From: an uncultured Granulosicoccaceae bacterium
GTDB taxonomy: Bacteria; Pseudomonadota; Gammaproteobacteria; Granulosicoccales; Granulosicoccaceae
Direction: 5' to 3'
Assembly (NCBI GenBank): GCA_937957915.1
Contig: CALGNZ010000048.1
Coordinates: forward strand, 1 to 35,406
Length of the DNA stretch: 35,406 nt
Positions 2,192 to 29,797 of the stretch are shown here, in pieces. The notes below the pieces were generated by a model. That model did no database searches. It worked only from the letters and a program-made list of their open reading frames with translations, and had not been told where the DNA came from. How positions within the stretch are numbered: the first letter of the stretch is position 1; each line of letters begins with the position of its first letter. The translations under genes were made by a program, and so were the position numbers.

Positions 2192-2899
2192 ATGTCTGAT
2201 GACGACTATGATGACGAAGAAGAAATCATCCTCTCTGAGCTGGACGATGACGAGCTCGTTGAGCAAATGCACGACGATCTCTACAACGGATTGAGAGAGG
2301 AAATCGTTGAAGGCACCAATATCCTGCTGGAGCGTAAGTGGGGACCTGACAAAGTTCTCAACGATGCGCTGGTAGAAGGAATGCGCATTGTCGGTATCGA
2401 TTTTCGCGATGGTATTCTGTTCGTGCCGGAAGTACTGATGGCGGCCAATGCAATGAAAGGCGGTATGGAAATACTGCGGCCACTATTGGTTGAAACCGGC
2501 GCCGAAACCATTGGCAAAATGGTGATCGGAACGGTGAAGGGCGACATCCATGACATCGGTAAAAACCTGGTTTCCATGATGATGGAAGGTGCGGGCTTCG
2601 AAGTCATCGATCTGGGCATTAACAACCCGGTAGAGGACTACCTTGCCGCGCTGGAAGAACACAAACCGGAAATACTGGGTATGTCCGCACTGTTAACGAC
2701 AACAATGCCCTACATGAAAGTGGTTATTGACACCCTCAAGGAACAGGGACTTCGCGACGACTACATCGTACTCGTCGGCGGTGCACCTCTGAACGAGGAA
2801 TTTGGCGATGCTATTGGCGCTGACGCTTATTGTCGCGACGCAGCTGTTGCGGTTGAAACCGCCAGCAAGCTGATCGCAGAACGTCGCGCCAGCGCTTAA
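2192..2899 (+). CDS. Corrinoid (B12-binding) methyl-carrier protein with acidic N-terminal tail
   Basis: This 235-residue protein shuttles a methyl group on its cobalt between methyltransferases. A helical cap domain of the MetH B12-binding-2 type (VPEVLMAANAMKGGMEIL, about 78-95) is followed by a Rossmann-like B12 domain. The lower axial ligand His120 lies in GDIHDIGKNLV. It resembles the MtbC/MtmC/MttC corrinoid proteins. Unusually, the first 29 residues hold 16 Asp/Glu and no Lys/Arg; typical family members begin near residue 25 with the helical cap. It heads a (+) block of one-carbon genes, and the next gene starts about 25 bp downstream. The expected partners are the MttB-like protein at 10079, the DHPS-like protein at 5605 and the RACo-like activator at 6617. 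Confidence 0.93.
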   Translation: MSDDDYDDEEEIILSELDDDELVEQMHDDLYNGLREEIVEGTNILLERKWGPDKVLNDALVEGMRIVGIDFRDGILFVPEVLMAANAMKGGMEILRPLLVETGAETIGKMVIGTVKGDIHDIGKNLVSMMMEGAGFEVIDLGINNPVEDYLAALEEHKPEILGMSALLTTTMPYMKVVIDTLKEQGLRDDYIVLVGGAPLNEEFGDAIGADAYCRDAAVAVETASKLIAERRASA

Positions 2900-2924
2900 G
2901 CCACTGGTAAACAAGACGGATCTG

Positions 2925-3593
2925 TTGGTGGATGGCGGAAAATCTCTGGTTATTGCCTGTGGCGCATTGGCCAGAGAGATAACAACACTGATTGAGTTAA
3001 ACGACTGGCACTCTATGCGAGTCCAGTGTATACCGGCGAAGATACACAACACACCAGACCAGATTCCTGATGCAGTAAGGAATCTGATCCGGCGGGCACG
3101 CCCACAGTACAGCGATATTTTTATTGCCTTTGCAGACTGCGGGACGGGTGGTTTACTTGACCGGGTCATCGCTGAGGAGCAGGTAGAGCGACTGGAAGGC
3201 GCGCATTGCTATGAATTTTATGCAGGCTCTGAAGCGTTCGCGGCACTTGAAACAGAAGAACTGGGTACCTTTTACCTCACTGATTTTCTGGCACGTCACT
3301 TTGAGCGCCTGATCATAAAGGAGCTTGGTATCAGCGCACACCCTGAGCTGCAGGAGATGTACTTTTCAAACTATAAAAGACTGGTCTATCTGGCGCAGAC
3401 CAACAACCCTGAGTTGCTGCAATTGGCTAAAGATGCAGCACGCAGACTAAACCTTGAGTTTGAGTATCGTCAGGTTGGATACGGACAACTTGAGCGCGAC
3501 CTGAACCATTTCCATACTCGCTGTGGTGGTCATACTGATCATGCCGTGACTGCAACGCCAACTAAAGAATTTCCTGTCCAATGGCAAAATTAA
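2925..3593 (+). CDS. DUF1638 domain protein
   Basis: This 222-residue protein matches the DUF1638 family by its opening LVIACGALAREI, the ADCGTGGLLDRVI motif near the middle and a conserved HCYEFYAG segment. Conserved Cys and His residues in these motifs suggest metal or thiol chemistry, but the biochemical role is unknown. Members recur next to corrinoid methyltransferase systems in archaea and bacteria, which fits its place directly after the corrinoid gene. The start is uncertain: TTG at 2925 or GTG at 2928. It overlaps the next gene by 13 bp, implying coupled translation. A role in corrinoid insertion, protection or reactivation is an inference. Confidence 0.85.
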   Translation: MVDGGKSLVIACGALAREITTLIELNDWHSMRVQCIPAKIHNTPDQIPDAVRNLIRRARPQYSDIFIAFADCGTGGLLDRVIAEEQVERLEGAHCYEFYAGSEAFAALETEELGTFYLTDFLARHFERLIIKELGISAHPELQEMYFSNYKRLVYLAQTNNPELLQLAKDAARRLNLEFEYRQVGYGQLERDLNHFHTRCGGHTDHAVTATPTKEFPVQWQN

Positions 3594-3889
3594 TCACTGT
3601 ATTCTGGCGCGATATTCCAGCGCAGGTCACTGCCAAAGCCGGACGTAAAACGGCAAAAATTCAGCTGCCCGATCGATTCCAGGAAGCGATCGATATGGCA
3701 GCGATGCGAGCAGGTAAAGGCAGTACTGATGAGTATCTTGAGGATTGGCGTCGCGAACAAACCGAATGCGACAATGACCTGCAGGCAGTAGTAGACAAAG
3801 AAGCAGCTCGCATCAATGAAACTTTTACGACAGAGTTTTTGCAGCAGGTTGTAAAAAACAAAGGCTATCTGCAGCAAGACGACGCGTAA
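3581..3889 (+). CDS. Small Virulence_fact-like protein
   Basis: This 102-residue soluble protein starts at ATG 3581 inside the end of the DUF1638 gene. The opening (LITVFWRDIPAQVTAKAGRK) and the following QLPDRFQEAIDMAAMRAG segment resemble the small Virulence_fact family (PF13769 as I recall). That name is historical and gives no mechanism. The C-terminal half is helical and acidic. Recurrent linkage to DUF1638 and MTHFR genes in proteobacteria argues for a role in corrinoid-linked one-carbon metabolism, not virulence. No catalytic motif is recognisable. Confidence 0.75.
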   Translation: MAKLITVFWRDIPAQVTAKAGRKTAKIQLPDRFQEAIDMAAMRAGKGSTDEYLEDWRREQTECDNDLQAVVDKEAARINETFTTEFLQQVVKNKGYLQQDDA

Positions 3890-3914
3890 TTACCCTGCGC
3901 GCGTGAAATACATG

Positions 3915-3948
3915 CACCACAGATACCTGTGGTGTCCGCAACATTTTT
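3915..3948 (+). terminator. Intercistronic hairpin with delayed T-run
   Basis: CACCACAG (3915-3922) and CTGTGGTG (3927-3934) form a perfect 8-bp stem with an ATAC tetraloop. A run of six T lies at 3943-3948, about 8 bases beyond the stem. The gap makes it a poor canonical terminator. It more likely acts as an attenuator or an mRNA processing or stability element between the corrinoid-DUF1638-Virulence_fact segment and the folate segment. Confidence 0.55.
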
Positions 3949-4072
3949 TGCAATTCTGCCCTGCTCCATATGAGTGATGAAGCAAGGCAAACCTTCAGTC
4001 GGTTCTCAGGTCTGGCGATGCGCCGGGTGTTTTACACCCAGTACCTTTGAATTACAGCATGCGAGTTCTCCT

Positions 4073-4534
4073 ATGTACCGTCTACGTCTGTGGTCAGTTA
4101 AACGCGCTCGATGGCTTGAAGTGTTTTATAGCTACTTTGAGAAGCTGATTGTATGGCTGCATCCACTGTGGAAAGCCATCGGCTATCATCGATTGGAAAA
4201 ACCATTTGCCAGCAGTGAAAGGCTTGTTAAGGGCATGCTTTTCGATTGCCAGATGTGCGGCCAGTGCGCACTAAGCTCCACCGGCATGTCTTGTCCGATG
4301 AACTGTCCGAAGAGCCTTCGCAATGGACCTTGTGGCGGAGTGCGCAGCAACGGTAACTGCGAAGTCATTGCCGACATGCCTTGCGTTTGGGTGCAAGCGT
4401 GGGAGGGCAGCCAAAAGATGGCCAATGGCAGTGCGATACAGCACGTGCAAAACGCTGTCGACTATCGACTGAAAAACCAATCGTCATGGCTGCGTATTGC
4501 ACAACAGCACAATCAGAAAGCCATAGAGGATTGA
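4073..4534 (+). CDS. MTHFR C-terminal-domain protein (MetV-like), cysteine-rich
   Basis: From ATG 4073 this encodes 153 residues. The segment starting MYRLRLWSVKRARW is basic and aromatic and may be membrane-associated. It is followed by a dense cysteine cluster (DCQMCGQCALSSTGMSC, then CPKSLRNGPCGG and later Cys), as in MTHFR_C/MetV proteins. In acetogens MetV partners MetF as an iron-sulfur or zinc subunit feeding electrons to methylene-THF reductase. An in-frame upstream extension from GTG 3974 or ATG 3977 adds about 33 unconserved-looking residues. I prefer 4073, although its ribosome binding site is weak. MetF starts 7 bp downstream, so the two are coupled. At least eight Cys could hold a cluster. 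Confidence 0.82.
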   Translation: MYRLRLWSVKRARWLEVFYSYFEKLIVWLHPLWKAIGYHRLEKPFASSERLVKGMLFDCQMCGQCALSSTGMSCPMNCPKSLRNGPCGGVRSNGNCEVIADMPCVWVQAWEGSQKMANGSAIQHVQNAVDYRLKNQSSWLRIAQQHNQKAIED

Positions 4535-4541
4535 CACCCGC

Positions 4542-5552
4542 ATGGAACAACGCAATGTCGATCTCTCGCCAGCAGAACTATTACCGATACTGCCCGGACA
4601 TAACTCACCAGGCAGATTCGAGCGCGTACTCAGAGCAGGCAAATTTGCCGTTACCACTGAACTGGCACCACCAGACTCCGCTGACCCGGCACAGGTATAC
4701 GAACGTGCCAGTGTCTTTGATGGCTACGTTGACGCGATTAATGCCACCGATGGAAGCGGTGCTAACTGCCATATGTCGAGCATTGCGGTTTGCGGACTAC
4801 TGACTCGGGCAGGCTATTCACCAATCATGCAGATCTCGTGTCGCGACAGGAATCGCATTGCAATACAAGGTGAAGTGCTGGGCGCCTCGGCAATGGGCGT
4901 GTCTAACATCCTCTGCCTGACCGGCGATGGTGTACAGGCCGGTGATCATCCTCAGGCAAAACCGGTCTTTGACCTTGATTGTATGTCTTTGCTCGCACTG
5001 GCAACGCAAATGCGTGACGAAAAACGCTTTGAAAGCGGACGTAAGCTTGACCAGCCCCCGGCTGTTTTTCTGGGTGCAGCTGCCAATCCGTTTGCACCGC
5101 CTTTCGACTGGCGGCCGCTGCGACTGGCGAAGAAGATTGCGGCAGGCGCGCAGTTTATACAAACCCAGTATTGCTTTGATATCGAGTTGCTGCAGAACTA
5201 TATGCGTCGCGTGCGTGAACTCGGCTTACACAGGCAGGTGTATATCCTTGTCGGTGTTGGCACGCTTGCATCGGCAAGAACAGCCACCTGGATACGTAAC
5301 AATGTTCCTGGTGTACATATTCCGGATAGCGTTATACAACGATTGTCCGGAGCGAAGGATCAACGTGCGGAAGGCGTAAACATCTGTGTTGATTTGATTC
5401 AGCAAATTCGCGAGATAGAAGGCGTCCATGGCTGCCACATAATGGCATACCGACAGGAGCAAACGGTGCCCGAGATAGTCGAGCGATCCGGCATCCTGAA
5501 AGAGCGCCGTGCAACACCGAACACCCGAACCCGTGTGACTAGACCAACCTGA
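4542..5552 (+). CDS. metF: Methylenetetrahydrofolate reductase (MetF-like)
   Basis: This 336-residue TIM-barrel flavoprotein family member interconverts 5,10-methylene-THF and 5-methyl-THF. Recognisable segments are AVTTELAPPDSADP near the N-terminus (the barrel strand with the general-acid Glu region), GVSNILCLTGDGVQAGDHP (FAD/folate loop) and FIQTQYCFDIELLQNYMRRV. The C-terminal segment GVNICVDLIQQI is also typical. It follows the MetV-like gene by 7 bp. In this cluster it probably runs in the oxidative direction on methyl groups taken from a methylated amine, but the reductive direction is also possible. The last 16 residues carry five Arg, a weaker version of the tails seen on its neighbours. 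Confidence 0.9.
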   Translation: MEQRNVDLSPAELLPILPGHNSPGRFERVLRAGKFAVTTELAPPDSADPAQVYERASVFDGYVDAINATDGSGANCHMSSIAVCGLLTRAGYSPIMQISCRDRNRIAIQGEVLGASAMGVSNILCLTGDGVQAGDHPQAKPVFDLDCMSLLALATQMRDEKRFESGRKLDQPPAVFLGAAANPFAPPFDWRPLRLAKKIAAGAQFIQTQYCFDIELLQNYMRRVRELGLHRQVYILVGVGTLASARTATWIRNNVPGVHIPDSVIQRLSGAKDQRAEGVNICVDLIQQIREIEGVHGCHIMAYRQEQTVPEIVERSGILKERRATPNTRTRVTRPT

Positions 5553-5604
5553 TTTTTGTTTTTAGTGGTTGCCGTCTGTCAACTATTTTCTGGAAAAGCG
5601 TTTT

Positions 5605-6516
5605 ATGACTAATACAGTAATTGGCTCTGCCACTCGTGATCACATCATCGGATTTGATAAACCTTTCACTATGATCGGTGAGAGAATAAACCCTACCGGC
5701 AGAAAGCTGCTGGCCGAAGAAATGAAAAACGGCGATTTCAGCCGAGTAGAAGCAGATGCACTCGCACAAATCGAAGCCGGCGCTCATATGCTCGACATCA
5801 ATGCCGGCATACCGCTGGCCGATGAGCCCGGTTTACTCGCTCAGGCAATCGAGCTTGTGCAATCATTAAGCGATATCCCTATATGTATCGACTCATCGAT
5901 CGTTGAAGCGCTCGAGCGTGGCCTCGAAGCATATAACGGCCGTGCCCTGCTGAATTCGGTAACCGGAGAAATCGAGCAGCTTGAGCGGGTACTGCCACTG
6001 GTAAAAAAATATGATGCCGCGGTCGTTGCGATCTCTAACGATGAAACCGGCATTTCTGAAGACCCGGCTGTACGTTTTGCAGTCGCCAAAAAAATTGTCG
6101 AACATGCAGCAGATTACGGAATCAAGCCCTGCGACATTGTGATTGATCCATTGGTAATGCCAATCGGTGCGATGGGCCAGGCCGGTCGACAGGTATTCGA
6201 TATCGTTGGACGCATTCAGCGCGAGTTGAAATGCAACACCACCTGCGGTGCTTCCAACATCAGTTTCGGCCTGCCCAACAGAAACGGCATAAACAGCGCG
6301 TTTTTAACCATGGCAATCTCGCACGGCATGACGTCGGCAATCACCAACCCCTGCCACAAGGAAGTCATGGAAGCCGTTATGGGAGCCGACGTACTGATGG
6401 GTCATGACCCTGACTGCCTTCGCTGGATTGGTAAGTATCGAGAACCTACCAACAGCGAAGGGCGCGGCCGACGCGTTACACGACGCAGACGCCCACCCAA
6501 AGACGGGGCGGCTTAA
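5605..6516 (+). CDS. Methyl-corrinoid:THF methyltransferase, DHPS-fold (MtgA/AcsE-like)
   Basis: This 303-residue TIM-barrel enzyme of the pterin-binding family transfers methyl between a corrinoid protein and tetrahydrofolate. Motifs include MIGERINPTGRKLLAEEM near the start and HMLDINAGIP. Further along are ICIDSS, NSVTGE, VIDPLVMPIG and CGASNISFGLPNR, the last carrying the pterin/Co-side Asn. ATG 5605 is preferred over an upstream TTG because it precedes the conserved start of the domain. The barrel ends at about residue 280 (DPDCLRWI). It is followed by a 23-residue tail with seven Arg and one Lys, coded by CGC, CGA and AGA in mixture. It acts between the corrinoid protein (2192) and MetF (4542). 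Confidence 0.92.
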   Translation: MTNTVIGSATRDHIIGFDKPFTMIGERINPTGRKLLAEEMKNGDFSRVEADALAQIEAGAHMLDINAGIPLADEPGLLAQAIELVQSLSDIPICIDSSIVEALERGLEAYNGRALLNSVTGEIEQLERVLPLVKKYDAAVVAISNDETGISEDPAVRFAVAKKIVEHAADYGIKPCDIVIDPLVMPIGAMGQAGRQVFDIVGRIQRELKCNTTCGASNISFGLPNRNGINSAFLTMAISHGMTSAITNPCHKEVMEAVMGADVLMGHDPDCLRWIGKYREPTNSEGRGRRVTRRRRPPKDGAA

Positions 6517-6535
6517 CCCGCCGCTGGCAACATAC

Positions 6536-6572
6536 CGGCAGTGATATATTCTTGCTGATACTATCGCTGCCG
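6536..6572 (+). other. Intercistronic stem-loop before the activator gene
   Basis: CGGCAGTGATA (6536-6546) pairs with TATCGCTGCCG (6562-6572), giving 11 bp including one G-U pair around a 15-base loop. There is no T-run, so it is not an intrinsic terminator. It sits 44 bases before the activator start at 6617. Plausible roles are mRNA processing or stabilisation, or a dyad operator that lets the activator gene be expressed separately. Confidence 0.6.
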
Positions 6573-6616
6573 ATAACTCCCTTGCATCCCTGCATCCTTA
6601 GTTGAGATGGCGATTC

Positions 6617-8683
6617 ATGTCAGATCCCACACAAACAACGCCGATTGGCGCAGCAGACGCGAAAGTTGTTTTCACGCCAAGTGGCCGGCGCGGAAGGTTC
6701 CCTGTCGGCACACCGGTTCTTGAAGCGGCCCGCTCACTTGGCGTCGATATAGATTCAGTGTGTGGCGGCCGTGCCATTTGTGGACGCTGCCAAATTTTAT
6801 GCGGCGAAGGTGATTTCGCCAAGCATGGCATCCAGTCGGCAGCTTCACACTTGTCTGGCTTTACGAAAACGGAAGAACGCTGGGAGCGGGTTAAAAAAGT
6901 CTCGCTTAACGGGCGAAGATTGAGCTGCCAGGCGCGTCTTGAAGGCGACGTAGTCATCGATGTGCCTCCTGATAGCCAGGTTCACCGACAGGTGGTTCGC
7001 AAAGGTGCGGATTTGCTGGATATCGAACTCAACCCGCTGGTGCGCCTCTATTACGTTGAAGTGCAGGAACCCGATATGCACACCCCGAGTGGCGACTTGC
7101 AACGTCTGCAAACCGCACTCGAATACGAATGGCACCTCAGCGACCTTACGGTAGAAACATCAATCCTGCCGTCGCTGCAAAAGGCACTGCGTCAGGACGA
7201 CTGGAAAGTGACAGTCGCTGTCGCCGAGAATCAGCGCATTATCGCTGTATGGTCTGGCTTCAAAGAACAAACCCTGGGCGTTGCGGTCGATGTTGGCTCG
7301 ACCACAATTGCAGCACACCTGTGTGACCTGATGACAGGCAACGTTCTCTCATCCAACGGCATCATGAATCCGCAGATCCGATTCGGAGAAGACCTGATGA
7401 GCCGTGTCTCTTACGTGATGATGAATCCCGGTGGCGAGGCTGATATGACAAGAGTGGTCAGGGAAGCGCTGTGCGAGTTGATTCACGAAAGCACCACTGA
7501 AATCGGCGCCACCCCGGATGACGTTATCGCAGTCACCCTGGTTGCTAATCCGGTGATGCATCATTTGCTATTGGGGATTAACCCGATTGAACTCGGCGGC
7601 GCGCCATTCGCACTGGCCAGCGATGGCGCGGTGCTTTGCACAGGGTCAGAACTTGATCTGAATACGCACAGAAATGCTCAGGTCTATGTATTGCCCTGTA
7701 TCGCCGGACACGTTGGCGCAGATACCGCCGGCGTTATTCTGGCCGAGCGGCCCGACACCATGGAAGACATCACGCTGATTGTCGATGTTGGCACCAACGC
7801 TGAAATCGTGCTCGGCAACAGACATCGGCTATTGGCCTGCTCAAGCCCAACCGGACCGGCGTTTGAAGGCGCACAAATCAGCGGTGGTCAACGCGCAGCA
7901 CCAGGCGCGATAGAACGAGTTCGCATCGACCCGGAGACCCTTGAGGCCAGATACAGTGTCATCGGAAGCGATGTCTGGTCCAACGATCCGGAGTTTACCG
8001 AAGCGACATCTCAGGTAGGTGTTACCGGCATTTGTGGCAGCGGCATTATTGAAGTGATCGCGGAGATGTATCTGGCCGGAATTATTGATCGCAACGGCGT
8101 TGTACGTGCTGAACTGGCTGGCCGATCAAACCGCATTATCGAAGACGGACGCACTCACTCGTACCTGTTGCACGAGGGTGAAGTAAAAATAATCATTACG
8201 CAAAACGACGTCCGACAGATTCAGCTTGCCAAAGCAGCACTCTACGCCGGTGTGCGTTTGCTGATGGATCGACTGGAAATAGACCACGTCGATCGCATTC
8301 GCCTGGCTGGAGCGTTCGGCAGCCACATTGACGTCAAGTATGCGATGGTGCTTGGTCTGATTCCCGACTGCCAGTTGAGCAACGTTTCATCGGCGGGTAA
8401 TGCTGCCGGCTCTGGCGCGCGGATCGCGCTGCTGGATATCAACTCACGCGAGGCGATTGAAGGGCTGGTTGATCAGGTGGAAAAAATAGAAACGGCAGTC
8501 GAACAGAAATTCCAGGATCACTTTGTTGCTGCGATGGGCATTCCACATACAACTGCCAGCTTTCCGGAACTCGCGAAGGAAGTTTCCCTCCCTGCGCGAG
8601 GCCCTGAAAGCGGTAACGCTTCAGACAGCCGACAATCCAGAAGACGGCGGCGCCGAAGCAGAACAGATGGTGGTTCTTCTTAG
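6617..8683 (+). CDS. RACo-type corrinoid activation protein (2Fe-2S ferredoxin + ASKHA/DUF4445)
   Basis: This 688-residue ATP-dependent reductive activator returns Co(II) corrinoid to the active Co(I) state. The N-terminal 2Fe-2S domain carries Cys49, Cys55 and Cys58 in CGGRAICGRC, plus Cys104. The large C-terminal ASKHA domain shows VDVGSTTIAAHL, VDVGTNAEIVL and SSPTGPAFEGAQISGG, then GICGSGIIEVIAEM. This is the RACo layout and not the 4Fe-4S RamA layout. ATG 6617 is chosen over TTG 6602. The C-terminus ends in a tail with six consecutive Arg and eight in all, written AGA AGA CGG CGG CGC CGA. Its last 63 bp overlap the convergent regulator gene. Confidence 0.92.
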   Translation: MSDPTQTTPIGAADAKVVFTPSGRRGRFPVGTPVLEAARSLGVDIDSVCGGRAICGRCQILCGEGDFAKHGIQSAASHLSGFTKTEERWERVKKVSLNGRRLSCQARLEGDVVIDVPPDSQVHRQVVRKGADLLDIELNPLVRLYYVEVQEPDMHTPSGDLQRLQTALEYEWHLSDLTVETSILPSLQKALRQDDWKVTVAVAENQRIIAVWSGFKEQTLGVAVDVGSTTIAAHLCDLMTGNVLSSNGIMNPQIRFGEDLMSRVSYVMMNPGGEADMTRVVREALCELIHESTTEIGATPDDVIAVTLVANPVMHHLLLGINPIELGGAPFALASDGAVLCTGSELDLNTHRNAQVYVLPCIAGHVGADTAGVILAERPDTMEDITLIVDVGTNAEIVLGNRHRLLACSSPTGPAFEGAQISGGQRAAPGAIERVRIDPETLEARYSVIGSDVWSNDPEFTEATSQVGVTGICGSGIIEVIAEMYLAGIIDRNGVVRAELAGRSNRIIEDGRTHSYLLHEGEVKIIITQNDVRQIQLAKAALYAGVRLLMDRLEIDHVDRIRLAGAFGSHIDVKYAMVLGLIPDCQLSNVSSAGNAAGSGARIALLDINSREAIEGLVDQVEKIETAVEQKFQDHFVAAMGIPHTTASFPELAKEVSLPARGPESGNASDSRQSRRRRRRSRTDGGSS

Positions 8684-9709
8684 AGAGGTTACTTTTGCTC
8701 CCCGCGGCGTCAACTTCGACGGTGTAGCAGCCTCTACCTGGCCAGCAGCCCTTCTGCGCTCGTCACGCGGAGGCAAACCAAAAGTGTCGCGGTAGCACTT
8801 ACTAAAATGAGGTGCCGAAATAAATCCGCAAGCCAGCGCAATGTCAACGATAGGCATGCTGGTCTGCAACAACAACTGGCGTGCACGTTCGAGGCGAAGT
8901 TCCAGGTAATACCGTGTCGGTACACATTGCAGGTAGCGCTGAAACAGTCGTTCGAGCTGGCGCCTCGACAGACCTACATGAAATGACAGTTCATCGAGTG
9001 TCATCGGCTCTTCGATATTGGCTTCCATCAAAGAGACCGCTTCTGCGAGTTTCGGTTGGTTAGTACCGATTCTTTGCGTCAGTGGCACGCGCTGGCGATC
9101 ATGCTTGTCACGTATACGATCGCACATGAACTGTTCGGTAATTGCCGAGGCCAGATCTGCACCATGCGCGTTTCTTATCTCGTGCAAAAACATATCAAGC
9201 GGCGCTGTTCCGCCAGCGCAGGTGTAACGGTTGTTGTCTACTTCAAAGAGTTCAGGCGAGATGACCAAATGCGGAAACTCTTCTCGCGAGCTGGCCATAT
9301 TCTCCCAATGGATAGTGCAGCGGCAGCCATCCAAAGCATCTGCTTTGGCAAGCAGATAGGTGCCTGTACAAACCGCACCCAACACCATATCCCGTTTTGC
9401 CGCAGCCCTTAACCAGTTAATAACACCGGGATCAGCGTGGTGTTGCACCTGGTTACCGGAACAGACAAACAGTGCATCGAGACTGCCAGCCTTGTCAATT
9501 GGAATATCCGGGGTGATGGTTACACCGTTACTTGCTGATACCGGATGTTCATCAGCGCCTACCGTAAACCATTCGTAGAGCGTGGTGCCAGCCAACTGGT
9601 TAGCCATTCTCAATGGCTCCACAGAAGACGAAAATGCCAGCAAAGAAAAGTTTGGCACTAGCAGGAATCCAATCGAAACCGGACTGCCCGCATTTTTCGC
9701 TTTGATCAT
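8621..9709 (-). CDS. GlxA-family regulator: DJ-1/PfpI domain + AraC HTH (GbdR-like)
   Basis: This 362-residue transcription factor has an N-terminal DJ-1/PfpI-like sensor domain (about 10-200, with the elbow GAVCTGTYLL at 111-120). A C-terminal AraC double helix-turn-helix follows (about 218-318, with LSFHVGLSRRQLERLFQRYL and ALACGFISAPHFSKCYRDTF). This architecture is shared by GbdR, CdhR and SouR, which sense glycine betaine, carnitine and sarcosine. Next to an MttB-like gene it most likely controls quaternary-amine use. A GGAA motif precedes ATG 9709. The last ~44 residues extend beyond the normal end of the family, and the final 21 codons are antisense to the activator gene's Arg tail. 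Confidence 0.9.
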   Translation of the reverse strand: MIKAKNAGSPVSIGFLLVPNFSLLAFSSSVEPLRMANQLAGTTLYEWFTVGADEHPVSASNGVTITPDIPIDKAGSLDALFVCSGNQVQHHADPGVINWLRAAAKRDMVLGAVCTGTYLLAKADALDGCRCTIHWENMASSREEFPHLVISPELFEVDNNRYTCAGGTAPLDMFLHEIRNAHGADLASAITEQFMCDRIRDKHDRQRVPLTQRIGTNQPKLAEAVSLMEANIEEPMTLDELSFHVGLSRRQLERLFQRYLQCVPTRYYLELRLERARQLLLQTSMPIVDIALACGFISAPHFSKCYRDTFGLPPRDERRRAAGQVEAATPSKLTPRGAKVTSLRRTTICSASAPPSSGLSAV

Positions 9710-10078
9710 TTATTTATTCCAGCAATCAGAGTCTTTTTTTCTCGGCTTTACGCTGAGATCTCTTGTCTGAATCAGCGCTACTTTGGCACTGTTCAACAGC
9801 CTCTAAAACAAAATTAACCACTACATGAAGGCTGGCGTTACTTTACTTATTGCGACATTTCGACAGAGTGCCAGTTGAATATACAATCAGGTACCAAACG
9901 ACATTTCAGTTGATTTCCTTAAATTGAAATCTCATGAAGCTTCCATAACCCTATTAAATTACTACGAATTTTATTTTCTACTCCTACGCAAATCAGTTTC
10001 TCAAAATGGGGGTTTCAAAAACCGGCCCCCGGTGAATTCCGGGTAAAAACAGGAATTTAGAGTGATCTAAACCAAAAT
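9710..10078. other. Intergenic region between the mttB-like and regulator genes
   Basis: No gene is seen in these 369 bases. The stretch is AT-rich and must contain the regulator's promoter. An inverted repeat GATTTC (9912-9917) / GAAATC (9926-9931) is a possible operator. The terminator of the upstream mttB-like gene occupies 10017-10043. No single -35/-10 pair stood out. Confidence 0.45.
10017..10043 (-). terminator. Terminator after the mttB-like gene
   Basis: Read on the minus strand, ACCGG-GGG-CCGGT is immediately followed by four more T (T-run 10021-10017). An alternative stem CCCGG/CCGGG spans 10028-10043. It lies about 36 bases past the TAG stop, and would separate mttB-like transcription from the regulator gene. 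Confidence 0.5.
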
Positions 10079-11635
10079 CTAATAGTTTGCATCCGCAAAA
10101 GAGCCTTTTCGCTGGTCAATGTAGTCTCTTAATGCCTCGTCTACTGCCACATCAATCGCCGGTGCTTCGTAGCTGGCAAGCATTTCTTTTACGAGCTTGT
10201 TTGCGCGTGCTGCGGCATCCAGCGCTCCTTCGCTTTCCCATTGTTCAAAGCTGTTGTTGTCGGCAATTGACGATCGATAAAAGGCGTTTTCAAAATTGGC
10301 CTGCGTGTGTTCGCAACCCAGAAAGTGAGCCCCGGGCCCAACTTCCTTTAACGCGCTAAGAGCCTGGCCGTTGTCACTGAAATCGAGCCCACCCGCAAAC
10401 ACATCAAGCATTCCGGCCTGGTCTGCATCCATCACAAATTTCTCGTAACTCATGACCAAACCGCCTTCCAGCCAGCCCGCCGTGTGCAGCATGAAGTTCA
10501 CGCCTGCAAGCAACGCTGCCTGCAAGGTATTGGCTGCCTCATATGCCGCCTGGGCATCTGGCAGCTTCGATGCATTCAACCCGCCACCTGAGCGAAACGG
10601 CACGCCAAGCCGACGTGCCAGCTCAGCTGCGATATACAGGACTGAAGCGGGCTCTGGCGTACCAAAAGTTGGTGCCCCCGACTGCATTGAAACACTGCTT
10701 GCGAATGTGCCAAAAACGACAGGCGCACCTGGCCTGACCAGCTGTACAAAGGCCATCCCCGCCAGCGCCTCGGCAAGAATCTGGGTTACGGTACCCACCA
10801 CCGTGACCGGCGACATTGCACCAGCCAGAATGAACGGAGAAATCACTGTTGCCTGATTCGCCTTCGCATAAACTTCCGCGGCACCTAGCATGGTGTCATC
10901 AAAGGTCATCGGAGAGTTGGCGTTGATGAGATTTATAACAACCGTTTTTTCAATGCCCGTATCGCTGTCAAGGTAGCCATCCCCGAACAGGATTTTCGAC
11001 ATTTCCACGGTATCCTGAGCACGCTCTGCCGCTGTGACAGAACCCATGTAGGGCTTGTCGCTGTAACGCATGTGCGCATAAACCATGTCGAAGTGGCGCT
11101 TGTTTACCGGCAGATCCACCGGCTCGCAGACGGTGCCACCGGAATGATGCAGCGACGGACTCATGTAGGCCAGTTTGACGAAATTTTGAAAGTCTTCGAT
11201 ATTCGCGTAACGCCTGCCATTGTCCAGATCTCTGACAAAAGGTGATCCGTACGCAGGTACTAATACAGTGCTGTCTCCGCCAATTTTTACACTACGTGAA
11301 GGGTTGCGAGCGTGCTGCACAAACTCGCGCGGGGCACTGTCCTGAATTATTTTACGGCACAGACCTCGAGGAAACCGTACTCGTTCTCCGTCGATATCCG
11401 CCCCGGCCTCGCGAAACAGTTCCAGAGCACGCGGGAAATCCCGAAACTCGATGCCTATTTCCTGCAGTACAGTATCTGCGTTGTGCTCAATGAGTTCGAG
11501 CTGCTCGTCGGTTGCATGACAATATGTCGGGACGCGGCGGGTTATAAACGGAGCTCCCTGGCTTTGCGCACGCTGGGCACGCTCAGCTCGTTTACCGGCC
11601 CTGCCACCGGATCTTCTTCGTCTGCCTTCCGCCAC
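10079..11635 (-). CDS. MttB-family (non-pyrrolysine) methylamine:corrinoid methyltransferase
   Basis: This 518-residue TIM-barrel protein of the trimethylamine methyltransferase family moves a methyl group from a quaternary or tertiary amine to the corrinoid protein. Family stretches include GGTVCEPVDLPVNKRHFDMV, FGTFASSVSMQSGAPTFGTP and the C-terminal AHFLGCEHTQANFENAFYRS. The frame has no internal UAG, so it belongs with the non-Pyl homologues (MtgB, MtpB, MtcB, MtyB), whose substrates include glycine betaine, proline betaine and carnitine. The substrate here cannot be read from sequence. The start is GTG 11635, with AGG about 8 bases upstream and no in-frame ATG before a stop at about 11681. 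Residues 1-25 hold nine Arg/Lys, including four in a row. Confidence 0.92.
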   Translation of the reverse strand: MAEGRRRRSGGRAGKRAERAQRAQSQGAPFITRRVPTYCHATDEQLELIEHNADTVLQEIGIEFRDFPRALELFREAGADIDGERVRFPRGLCRKIIQDSAPREFVQHARNPSRSVKIGGDSTVLVPAYGSPFVRDLDNGRRYANIEDFQNFVKLAYMSPSLHHSGGTVCEPVDLPVNKRHFDMVYAHMRYSDKPYMGSVTAAERAQDTVEMSKILFGDGYLDSDTGIEKTVVINLINANSPMTFDDTMLGAAEVYAKANQATVISPFILAGAMSPVTVVGTVTQILAEALAGMAFVQLVRPGAPVVFGTFASSVSMQSGAPTFGTPEPASVLYIAAELARRLGVPFRSGGGLNASKLPDAQAAYEAANTLQAALLAGVNFMLHTAGWLEGGLVMSYEKFVMDADQAGMLDVFAGGLDFSDNGQALSALKEVGPGAHFLGCEHTQANFENAFYRSSIADNNSFEQWESEGALDAAARANKLVKEMLASYEAPAIDVAVDEALRDYIDQRKGSFADANY

Positions 11636-28738: not shown

Positions 28739-29797
28739 ATGAAAAACGTGATTACAGAAATGCTGGATGAAAAATCGTACATCCTTGCAGATGGTGCAAC
28801 CGGTACAAACCTGTTTAGCATGGGGCTGCAAACCGGCGACGCACCGGAATTCTGGAATGCGGACCATCCTGATCGCGTAACCCGCCACTACGAGAGCTTC
28901 ATCGAGGCGGGCTCGGATCTCGTCCTCACCAACACCTTTGGTGGCAATCGCTACCGACTACAGCTGCACCAGGGTGAGCATCGGGTGGCCGAGTTAAACG
29001 AGCAGGCTGCCAGCCTGCTCAGGAAAGCAGCTGACGCGTGTGAGCGCAAAGTTCTGGTCGCAGGTGATATCGGTCCAACCGGAGAAATATTTGAACCCAC
29101 GGGCACACTATCTATCGAGGCTGCAACAGAAGCCTTTGCAGAGCAGGCTCAGGCACTGGCTAACGGTGGAGCAGATCTGATCTGGATTGAGACTCTGTCG
29201 TCGATTGAAGAAGCCCAGGCAGCATTTGCCGGGGCCAGATCTACCGGATTACCGGTTGTTTTTTCAATGAGCATCGATACCAACGGGCGCACGATGATGG
29301 GGGTAACGGCCGCAGACATCATCGGGCTTGCTGGCGAAATGGTGCCGGAACTGGCCGGTTGTGGCAGCAATTGCGGAGTTGGCGCCGCAGAGGTAGTCGC
29401 TGCCATGGTCAACATGAAAACGGCGTGCAAGTCGCTGCCGCAGCCACCTGCACTGATTGCCAAAGCAAACTGTGGCATACCGGAGTGGGTTGATGGCGAA
29501 ATTGTCTACAACGGAACCCCTCAGCTAATGGCCCGCTATGCCCAGCTCGCGTTTGATTCCGGCGCTCGCATTATTGGTGGATGCTGTGGAACAACGCCTG
29601 CTCATATCAGCGCAATGCGTGACGCCATGGACAACTATCAACCCGGTGAGGCGCCGCAAATTGACCAGATTATCGGTGAGCTGGGAGAAGTCTCGCTCGG
29701 CGCCAGATCGCAACTGGACGGTGACATGAGCGTTGCTGGCGGGTCTGCATCAGGTGCTACCCGAAAACGGGGCCGGCGAACAAAACGTTCGGTATAG
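28739..29797 (+). CDS. Homocysteine S-methyltransferase (BHMT / MetH-Hcy-module family) with Arg-rich tail
   Basis: This 352-residue TIM-barrel zinc enzyme methylates homocysteine. The start ILADGATGTNLFSMGL resembles the first module of cobalamin-dependent MetH more than animal BHMT. The zinc ligands are Cys212 (GSNCGVG), Cys282 and Cys283 (GGCCGTTP). The barrel ends near residue 300. A Gly/Ala/Ser-rich linker and a C-terminal tail with seven Arg/Lys (TRKRGRRTKRSV) follow. The same kind of tail is on the methyl-corrinoid enzymes at 5605 and 6617. Methyl donor candidates are glycine betaine or the methylated corrinoid protein at 2192. It stands alone, divergent from the oxygenase. Confidence 0.9.
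   Translation: MKNVITEMLDEKSYILADGATGTNLFSMGLQTGDAPEFWNADHPDRVTRHYESFIEAGSDLVLTNTFGGNRYRLQLHQGEHRVAELNEQAASLLRKAADACERKVLVAGDIGPTGEIFEPTGTLSIEAATEAFAEQAQALANGGADLIWIETLSSIEEAQAAFAGARSTGLPVVFSMSIDTNGRTMMGVTAADIIGLAGEMVPELAGCGSNCGVGAAEVVAAMVNMKTACKSLPQPPALIAKANCGIPEWVDGEIVYNGTPQLMARYAQLAFDSGARIIGGCCGTTPAHISAMRDAMDNYQPGEAPQIDQIIGELGEVSLGARSQLDGDMSVAGGSASGATRKRGRRTKRSV

Follow-up and report, generated by a model that had tools for sequence, protein, structure and literature searches.

Arginine-rich ends on the enzymes that share one acidic B12 carrier: candidate docking tags in the MtgC methyl-transfer system

The closest described relatives of the genes considered here are those of the roseobacters Ruegeria pomeroyi and Phaeobacter inhibens, in which the proteins MtgBCDE are accompanied by RamA and a DUF1638 protein (PMC12478193, PMC5764234). 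According to the sections of PMC12478193 covered here, the R. pomeroyi system is needed for methionine synthesis and for growth on glycine betaine, and expression of the MtgC gene in the global ocean often exceeds that of other glycine-betaine pathways. The excerpts of both papers describe a multimeric enzyme around MtgC and mention neither Arg tails nor an acidic arm; "arginine", "tail" and "electrostatic" are absent from the main text of PMC12478193 and "arginine-rich" is absent from PMC5764234. The papers found give no account of how the split subunits meet the single B12 carrier. Here we analyse a 35,406-nucleotide stretch of DNA from an uncultured Granulosicoccaceae bacterium (the window; contig CALGNZ010000048.1 of assembly GCA_937957915.1, which is contig 48 of a 5.4-Mb draft genome) whose protein set is identical to that given in the roseobacter excerpts: a PF06253 MttB protein, MtgC, the pterin-binding MtgD, the homocysteine-binding MtgE, a RACo/RamA-like activator, DUF1638 and a second MetF. 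Judged by family profile matches, which place homologues of MtgC, MtgD, MttB and MtgE together with RACo and DUF1638 in the window, the cluster most probably belongs to the known aerobic MtgBCDE/RACo system, a split methionine synthase plus glycine-betaine demethylase. This protein set is already known; what is new here is the Arg-rich tails of four of its enzymes and the acidic arm of their carrier. Literature searches, with subscription journals and preprints mostly outside their scope, returned no paper describing the tails.

The initial annotation of the window had pointed to complementary charges at the ends of these proteins, and its counts are borne out. The corrinoid carrier MtgC begins with a net charge of −14 over its first 25 residues. 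Basic residues crowd the N-terminus of MttB (9 Arg/Lys among the first 25 residues) and the C-termini of the DHPS-like MtgD (8 Arg/Lys among the last 23), RACo (8 Arg in the last 20, six of them consecutive) and the homocysteine methyltransferase MtgE (7 Arg/Lys among the last 12). The Arg codons are mixed, as had been stated, with all six in use, and simple-repeat expansion is not supported. The claim that the tails lie beyond the domains is correct for MtgD, MtgE and RACo, whose Pfam domain ends at residue 652 of 688; it fails for MttB, where PF06253 matches from residue 8 and most of the tag falls inside the model. Other window proteins mostly lack comparable tails, again as claimed, and a weak basic end of MetF that had been set apart as an exception does not belong to the pattern (1 of 32 relatives); the Arg/Pro-rich N-terminus of the OmpA-domain protein was looked at in the window only. 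We can confirm that the terminal charge pattern is real and common beyond this genome.

Two collections bear on this conclusion. For the genome set, 398 genomes sampled evenly across the phylum were searched for RACo, and 43 gave a match; 42 of the matches, including that of the window genome, have at least 56% identity, and the remaining, distant one (G191) was left out of the 42. The named loci (L286-L365) come from an MtgC-alignment scan of named genome contigs, which confirmed 588 loci; the best 80 were kept, and are therefore close relatives. They are mainly alpha-, beta- and gammaproteobacterial, with three labelled actinobacterial, and some of their species may recur among the 42 genomes. 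One of these three, that of Candidatus Planktophila lacus (L334), closely resembles a proteobacterial metagenome-assembled genome (MAG; L330) at the ends of RACo, MtgD, MttB and MtgC, possibly through contamination. A C-terminal Arg cluster was scored as at least four Arg in eight residues within the last 30. Eight-residue windows (at least four Arg) separate N-termini poorly because start codons are uncertain (MttB 29/41 and 25/33; background 18/275, MetF2 9/34, PF13769 9/66), and the MttB tag was therefore called when the best stretch of 20 residues near the start held at least five Arg. One RACo and four MtgD sequences cut by contig ends and one partial MttB match (L325) were dropped before counting.

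By these measures the C-terminal cluster is present in 98 of 98 RACo sequences (42/42 genomes and 56/56 named loci), 99 of 100 MtgD sequences (41/42 and 58/58) and 56 of 56 MtgE sequences (41/41 and 15/15), or 253 of the 254 pooled. The best MttB window holds 6-8 Arg in 41/41 genomes and 5-8 in 33/33 named loci, so that all 74 reach five. The start of MtgC is net negative in 122/122, its charge over 25 residues ranging from −8 to −14 in the 42 genomes and from −4 to −14 in the named loci, where some starts were placed too far upstream. One MtgC (at least 69% identity) and an MtgD are encoded in each of the 42 genomes, with MtgE and MttB found in 41 each at the thresholds used; further corrinoid matches are of 31-37% identity and mostly MetH-sized frames. 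Tails and acidic MtgC occur together in the 42 genomes, as they do in every named locus whose fetched stretch includes a partner gene. The partner genes are often far apart or on different contigs, and tags are kept where one partner was not found (MtgE in G086, MttB in G103). Acidic carriers and Arg tails occurring apart, without pattern, had been named beforehand as the finding that would speak against a link; we looked for such cases in the 42 genomes and the named loci, and the co-occurrence held.

Could these counts reflect composition alone? Arg codons are GC-rich (guanine plus cytosine), random high-GC frames are Arg-rich, and 36 of 275 background open reading frames (ORFs) reach the N-terminal threshold, all of which would suit an artefact of high GC, repeat expansion or a wrong reading frame. 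We regard this as scarcely credible, since it is already contradicted: the number of Arg in the tags shows no increase with GC over the range 44-70% (that of MtgD falls slightly), all six Arg codons are used, and RACo, MtgD and MttB carry the tag with annotated starts in Azoarcus sp. KH32C plasmid pAZKH and Paracoccus aminovorans plasmid IV. Moreover, other conserved ORFs of the named loci show a C-terminal cluster in 2/272. The cluster is found in 0/69 DUF1638 relatives and 0/65 PF13769 relatives, in 1/32 MetF2, 1/32 DUF5981 and 1/23 GbdR-like proteins, in 2/122 MtgC C-termini and in 0/72 MttB C-termini; DUF1638 and the PF13769 "virulence factor" protein have 69 and 66 ORF matches in the 80 loci, yet are tail-less. 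On the two named plasmids, 3/66 coding sequences outside the cluster families have it, as does the Paracoccus DUF5981 protein, and three other homocysteine-methyltransferase-family proteins of the window genome have no tail. At N-termini, where starts are uncertain, 14 of the 275 other conserved ORFs reach six Arg in 20 residues, as do 5/66 PF13769 proteins (at least six); by count alone the MttB tag stands out less than the C-terminal tails.

The tags favour Arg over Lys, with Lys/(Lys+Arg) of 0.05-0.11 in tags vs 0.30-0.46 in cores. Identity within tag windows is 0.49 for RACo, 0.48 for MtgD and 0.61 for MtgE, vs 0.47, 0.37 and 0.53 after shuffling; in these three proteins the linkers before the tags are 0.13-0.22 identical and the folded parts 0.64-0.75, and 60-75% of paired Arg are encoded by different codons. 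Arg content thus persists while the linkers diverge, and selection appears to act on the composition of the tags more than on their exact sequence. That same composition would make the tags disordered. With the terminal pieces removed, all five proteins are net negative in 208/208 sequences, and the pieces themselves average −9.9 for MtgC vs +3.7 to +5.1 for its partners.

Homologues outside the system mostly lack these ends. For MttB, RACo and MtgD, alignments to PDB homologues are confined to the domains, with the exception of 4yyc, a putative trimethylamine methyltransferase that carries the tag. The MtgB chains 2qne and 9yce (2QNE is named as MtgB in the section of PMC9842639 covered here) align from residue 34-35 of the window MttB, with 19 unseen residues of 2qne preceding; RACo 3zyy aligns up to residue 647 of 688, methyl-tetrahydrofolate (THF):corrinoid methyltransferase chains up to 276-281 of the 304 MtgD residues, and the corrinoid chain 1y80 from residue 24 of MtgC, i.e. 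without the acidic arm. We also searched 396 genomes from a second phylum, that of a MAG labelled Acidimicrobiia, of which 149 have a RACo-like match. In the best 30 loci an Arg cluster follows the domain in 24/24 scorable RACo and 22/23 scorable MtgD genes, often trailed by further residues, and the MttB tag is present in 19/19 (the incomplete RACo genes of L416 and L424 were dropped); MtgC was seen at the edges of L396 and L397 and in L353, the loci searched for it. RACos of 42-45% identity among these 30 loci have the cluster in 0/4, and among 40 sampled C-ends of divergent RACos (31-37% identity) it occurs once. Of the 122 genomes with solely a divergent RACo (at most 45% identity), 80 were searched for MttB, 27 matched and 30 loci were taken, of which L466 and L489 are cut and L490 and L492 gave no match. 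The remaining 26 MttBs have a median of 18 residues before the domain, and 1 of 26 has at least five Arg in 20; this lone case (L476) has a GTG start at a doubtful position. MttB loci from 16 genomes with the system, scored in the same way, are tagged in 29/30, with a median of 45.5 residues before the domain. Tag and acidic MtgC thus co-occur and outside homologues mostly lack the tag, the exceptions being 1/40 RACo and 1/26 MttB outside and 1/100 MtgD inside. Alongside MtgC, nearly every counted member of four Pfam families is tagged, and the tag is nearly restricted to the system. This sits poorly with a function of each tail in its own enzyme (oligomer contacts, autoregulation or stability) and a convergent likeness: N-terminal residues of Methanosarcina barkeri MttB do stabilise the oligomer, according to the same excerpt of PMC9842639, but one composition shared by four Pfam families, nearly only in this system, renders such an explanation very improbable.

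A shared, MtgC-linked function of the tails is very likely, we conclude from the co-occurrence of tails and acidic MtgC and from the mostly tail-less outside homologues, and docking would be its simplest form. Of the electrostatic docking or scaffold proposed in the initial annotation, that shared function stands; docking as such and the arm as receptor are what we infer beyond it. On balance we favour, with some reserve, the view that the Arg-rich ends are flexible tags by which the enzymes dock on a carrier they share. This one MtgC would meet in turn the MttB donor enzyme, often one of several, then MtgD, MtgE and the RACo activator. The folded cores and MtgC being net negative, the tags would be the positive parts that hold or steer the enzymes to the N-terminal arm of MtgC, to which they may bind and which adjoins the B12 cap, a domain that has to move at each transfer. 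We picture these contacts as weak, multivalent and exchangeable; one carrier could then serve many clients, and docking may raise transfer rates. A condensate of the enzymes is conceivable.

The client list is long. The 42 genomes encode up to nine MttBs vs one MtgC, and 60 MttB paralogues (27-56% identity), hand-chosen from 20 genomes among the matches listed, all pass a looser measure (at least four Arg and at least five Arg+Lys within 20 residues close to the start), 56 of them with at least five Arg. In the window genome the five other full-length MttBs are all tagged, as judged by eye, and there are two B12-binding_2 domains, those of MtgC and of a MetH-sized frame. We entertain, tentatively and just short of thinking it probable, that the Arg tag is a portable address that defines the clientele of one B12 carrier, so that any methyltransferase gaining it plugs into MtgC. 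If so, it would explain how enzymes as diverse as MttB-type demethylases (up to nine or ten), a folate enzyme, a repair activase and the enzyme that forms methionine can all use one carrier while remaining unfused, and it may gather the clients in a dynamic assembly. A conserved charge tag may help to identify new client enzymes by their sequence, and under the portable-tag idea it could predict further clients.

Charge co-variation offers another line of evidence. Contrasts computed on a tree of concatenated cores of the 42 genomes pair a more negative MtgC start with more positive partner tails (at the largest branch floor, 0.05, r is −0.58 for RACo, −0.52 for MtgD, −0.42 for MtgE and −0.41 for MttB; p 6e-5 to 0.008, and up to 0.017 at other floors), and control termini and cores give r near zero or positive. 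This co-variation is supporting but unsettled. It is unexpected if the tags instead bind another polyanion (RNA, nucleoid DNA, polyphosphate or a membrane surface) that co-localises the enzymes, MtgC being acidic for other reasons or competing. Arg/Gly-rich ends are typical of nucleic-acid binders, Arg is favoured over Lys in the tags, and MtgC itself has no positive C-terminal tail (2/122), all of which suits a polyanion; however, the tags sit on the direct MtgC partners, are mostly missing from DUF1638, PF13769, MetF2 and DUF5981 and from homologues in other systems, and we hold this alternative to be unlikely. Tags that merely offset the repulsion of acidic cores, steering encounters to a higher rate without a defined receptor on MtgC, would accord with the net negative cores and MtgC in 208/208 and with a RACo tag order hardly conserved beyond composition. 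Against this, the acidic arm of MtgC, missing in 1y80, would worsen the repulsion unless it is a receptor, and we consider simple steering rather improbable.

Several observations weigh against the docking interpretation. In the 56 named loci the charge relation has the same sign but is weak and mostly not significant (r −0.15 to −0.28; p 0.15-0.26 for RACo, 0.36-0.41 for MttB and 0.036-0.10 for MtgD); with a cruder arm boundary there is no relation, and the anchored boundary turns it weakly negative. In the 42 genomes the MtgE contrast fails to reach significance under the plain first-40 measure (p 0.11), and the plain rank correlation of MtgE is positive (+0.24). In several MttB starts (family f52 genomes, G280, G315) acidic residues stand ahead of the Arg and bring the net charge of the first 25 residues to between 0 and −2, and in low-GC loci (<50% GC) Lys partly replaces Arg (Lys/(Lys+Arg) 0.13-0.23, in single loci 0.56). 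G191, possibly an outgroup, has a distant corrinoid protein with an acidic start, yet its RACo lacks the Arg tail. A single origin of each tail within its family is probable, which leaves few independent events. DUF1638, genetically linked to reactivation in the excerpt of PMC5764234, has no tail. Finally, P. inhibens Bmt (MtgE), purified alone, makes methionine from betaine or dimethylsulfoniopropionate in vitro, according to the part of PMC12366255 covered here.

Features of the MtgC system and neighbouring genes in the window
Feature	Position	Strand	Evidence
MtgC-type corrinoid carrier, 235 amino acids	2192..2899	+	PF02607, PF02310; 68-81% identity to 22 relatives
Acidic N-terminal arm of MtgC (residues 1-22), before B12 cap domain	2192..2257	+	PF02607 from residue 23
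DUF1638 protein, tail-less control	2925..3593	+	PF07796
Small PF13769 protein without C-terminal tail, control	3581..3889	+	Pfam match
DUF5981, MTHFR C-terminal-domain protein, control	3974..4534	+	Pfam match
MetF2-like methylene-THF reductase; basic end unconserved	4542..5552	+	Pfam match
MtgD, methyl-THF:corrinoid methyltransferase	5605..6516	+	NF005719 361 bits vs cut-off 259; PF00809
Arg tail of MtgD, last 23 residues	6445..6513	+	Residue counts, conservation in relatives
RACo-like corrinoid activator	6617..8683	+	PF14574, PF17651, PF17650
Arg tail of RACo, last 20 residues; antisense to end of GbdR-like gene	8621..8680	+	
GbdR-like AraC regulator	8621..9709	-	NF052371 467 bits, slightly below cut-off 480
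MttB-superfamily (MtgB-like) methyltransferase, GTG start	10079..11635	-	PF06253 754.6 bits
Arg-rich N-terminal tag of MttB, residues 1-25	11561..11635	-	
MtgE, homocysteine methyltransferase	28739..29797	+	NF005718 439 bits vs cut-off 338; PF02574
Arg/Lys tail of MtgE, last 12 residues	29759..29794	+	

With the scores in the table, MtgD lies above the cut-off for the PRK07535 methyl-THF:corrinoid methyltransferases and MtgE above that for the PRK07534 betaine-homocysteine methyltransferases, its use of betaine being predicted. NCBIfam MtgC models give the window MtgC 206 and 182 bits vs cut-offs of 370 and 310, and in the named collection its nearest relatives are MtgCs of Granulosicoccaceae MAGs. 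MttB scores below the cut-off for the pyrrolysine trimethylamine methyltransferases (TIGR02369, 250 bits vs cut-off 525) and RACo below that for the AcsV activators (NF040756, 384 bits vs cut-off 800), the general RACo domains being matched. The metH family models also match MtgC, MtgD and MtgE, and the organism encodes in addition a MetH-like frame of 1243 codons. The MtgE-type gene lies 17 kb from the remaining cluster. The MtgD query was taken from 5602, one codon before the ATG at 5605.

The Arg tail of RACo is encoded within a tail-to-tail overlap of 63 bases (8621-8683) with the GbdR-like gene. The overlap, checked in the window only, was rejected as the source of that tail: GbdR-like ORFs were found 25 times vs RACo tails in 56/56. 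A Tat-type (twin-arginine translocation) signal as the nature of the MttB tag was rejected by eye only. Upstream of mtgC, about 1.2 kb (971-2191) holds no ORF of at least 100 amino acids, and an Rfam scan of the window gave no match at gathering scores. On pAZKH a folB gene (dihydroneopterin aldolase; L496:48632-49090) near betaine/sarcosine genes encodes a protein ending in IRRRRTRA, either a further tagged folate enzyme or chance.

Among other known systems, the anaerobic MtgABC, MttBC and MtaBC proteins with RACo/AcsV share homologous domains, over which alone their PDB structures align. MtaC has an additional N-terminal docking domain, which fits between MtaB subunits, in place of the short acidic arm of MtgC; the MttC cap contacts the MttB dimerization loop, and N-terminal strands of MttB lie near the twofold axes (all from the sections of PMC9842639 covered here). 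By analogy, these MtaC/MtaB and MttC/MttB structures make docking on MtgC plausible. MetH, the one-chain cobalamin-dependent methionine synthase, has the same homocysteine, folate and cobalamin modules; there they are covalently joined, whereas the window system consists of separate proteins with charged ends, and the tags may replace the covalent links. Modular synthases use charge-complementary docking domains, short terminal segments that pair separate modules. Those docking domains pair one to one, whereas the arrangement proposed here would have one receptor serve four unrelated client families.

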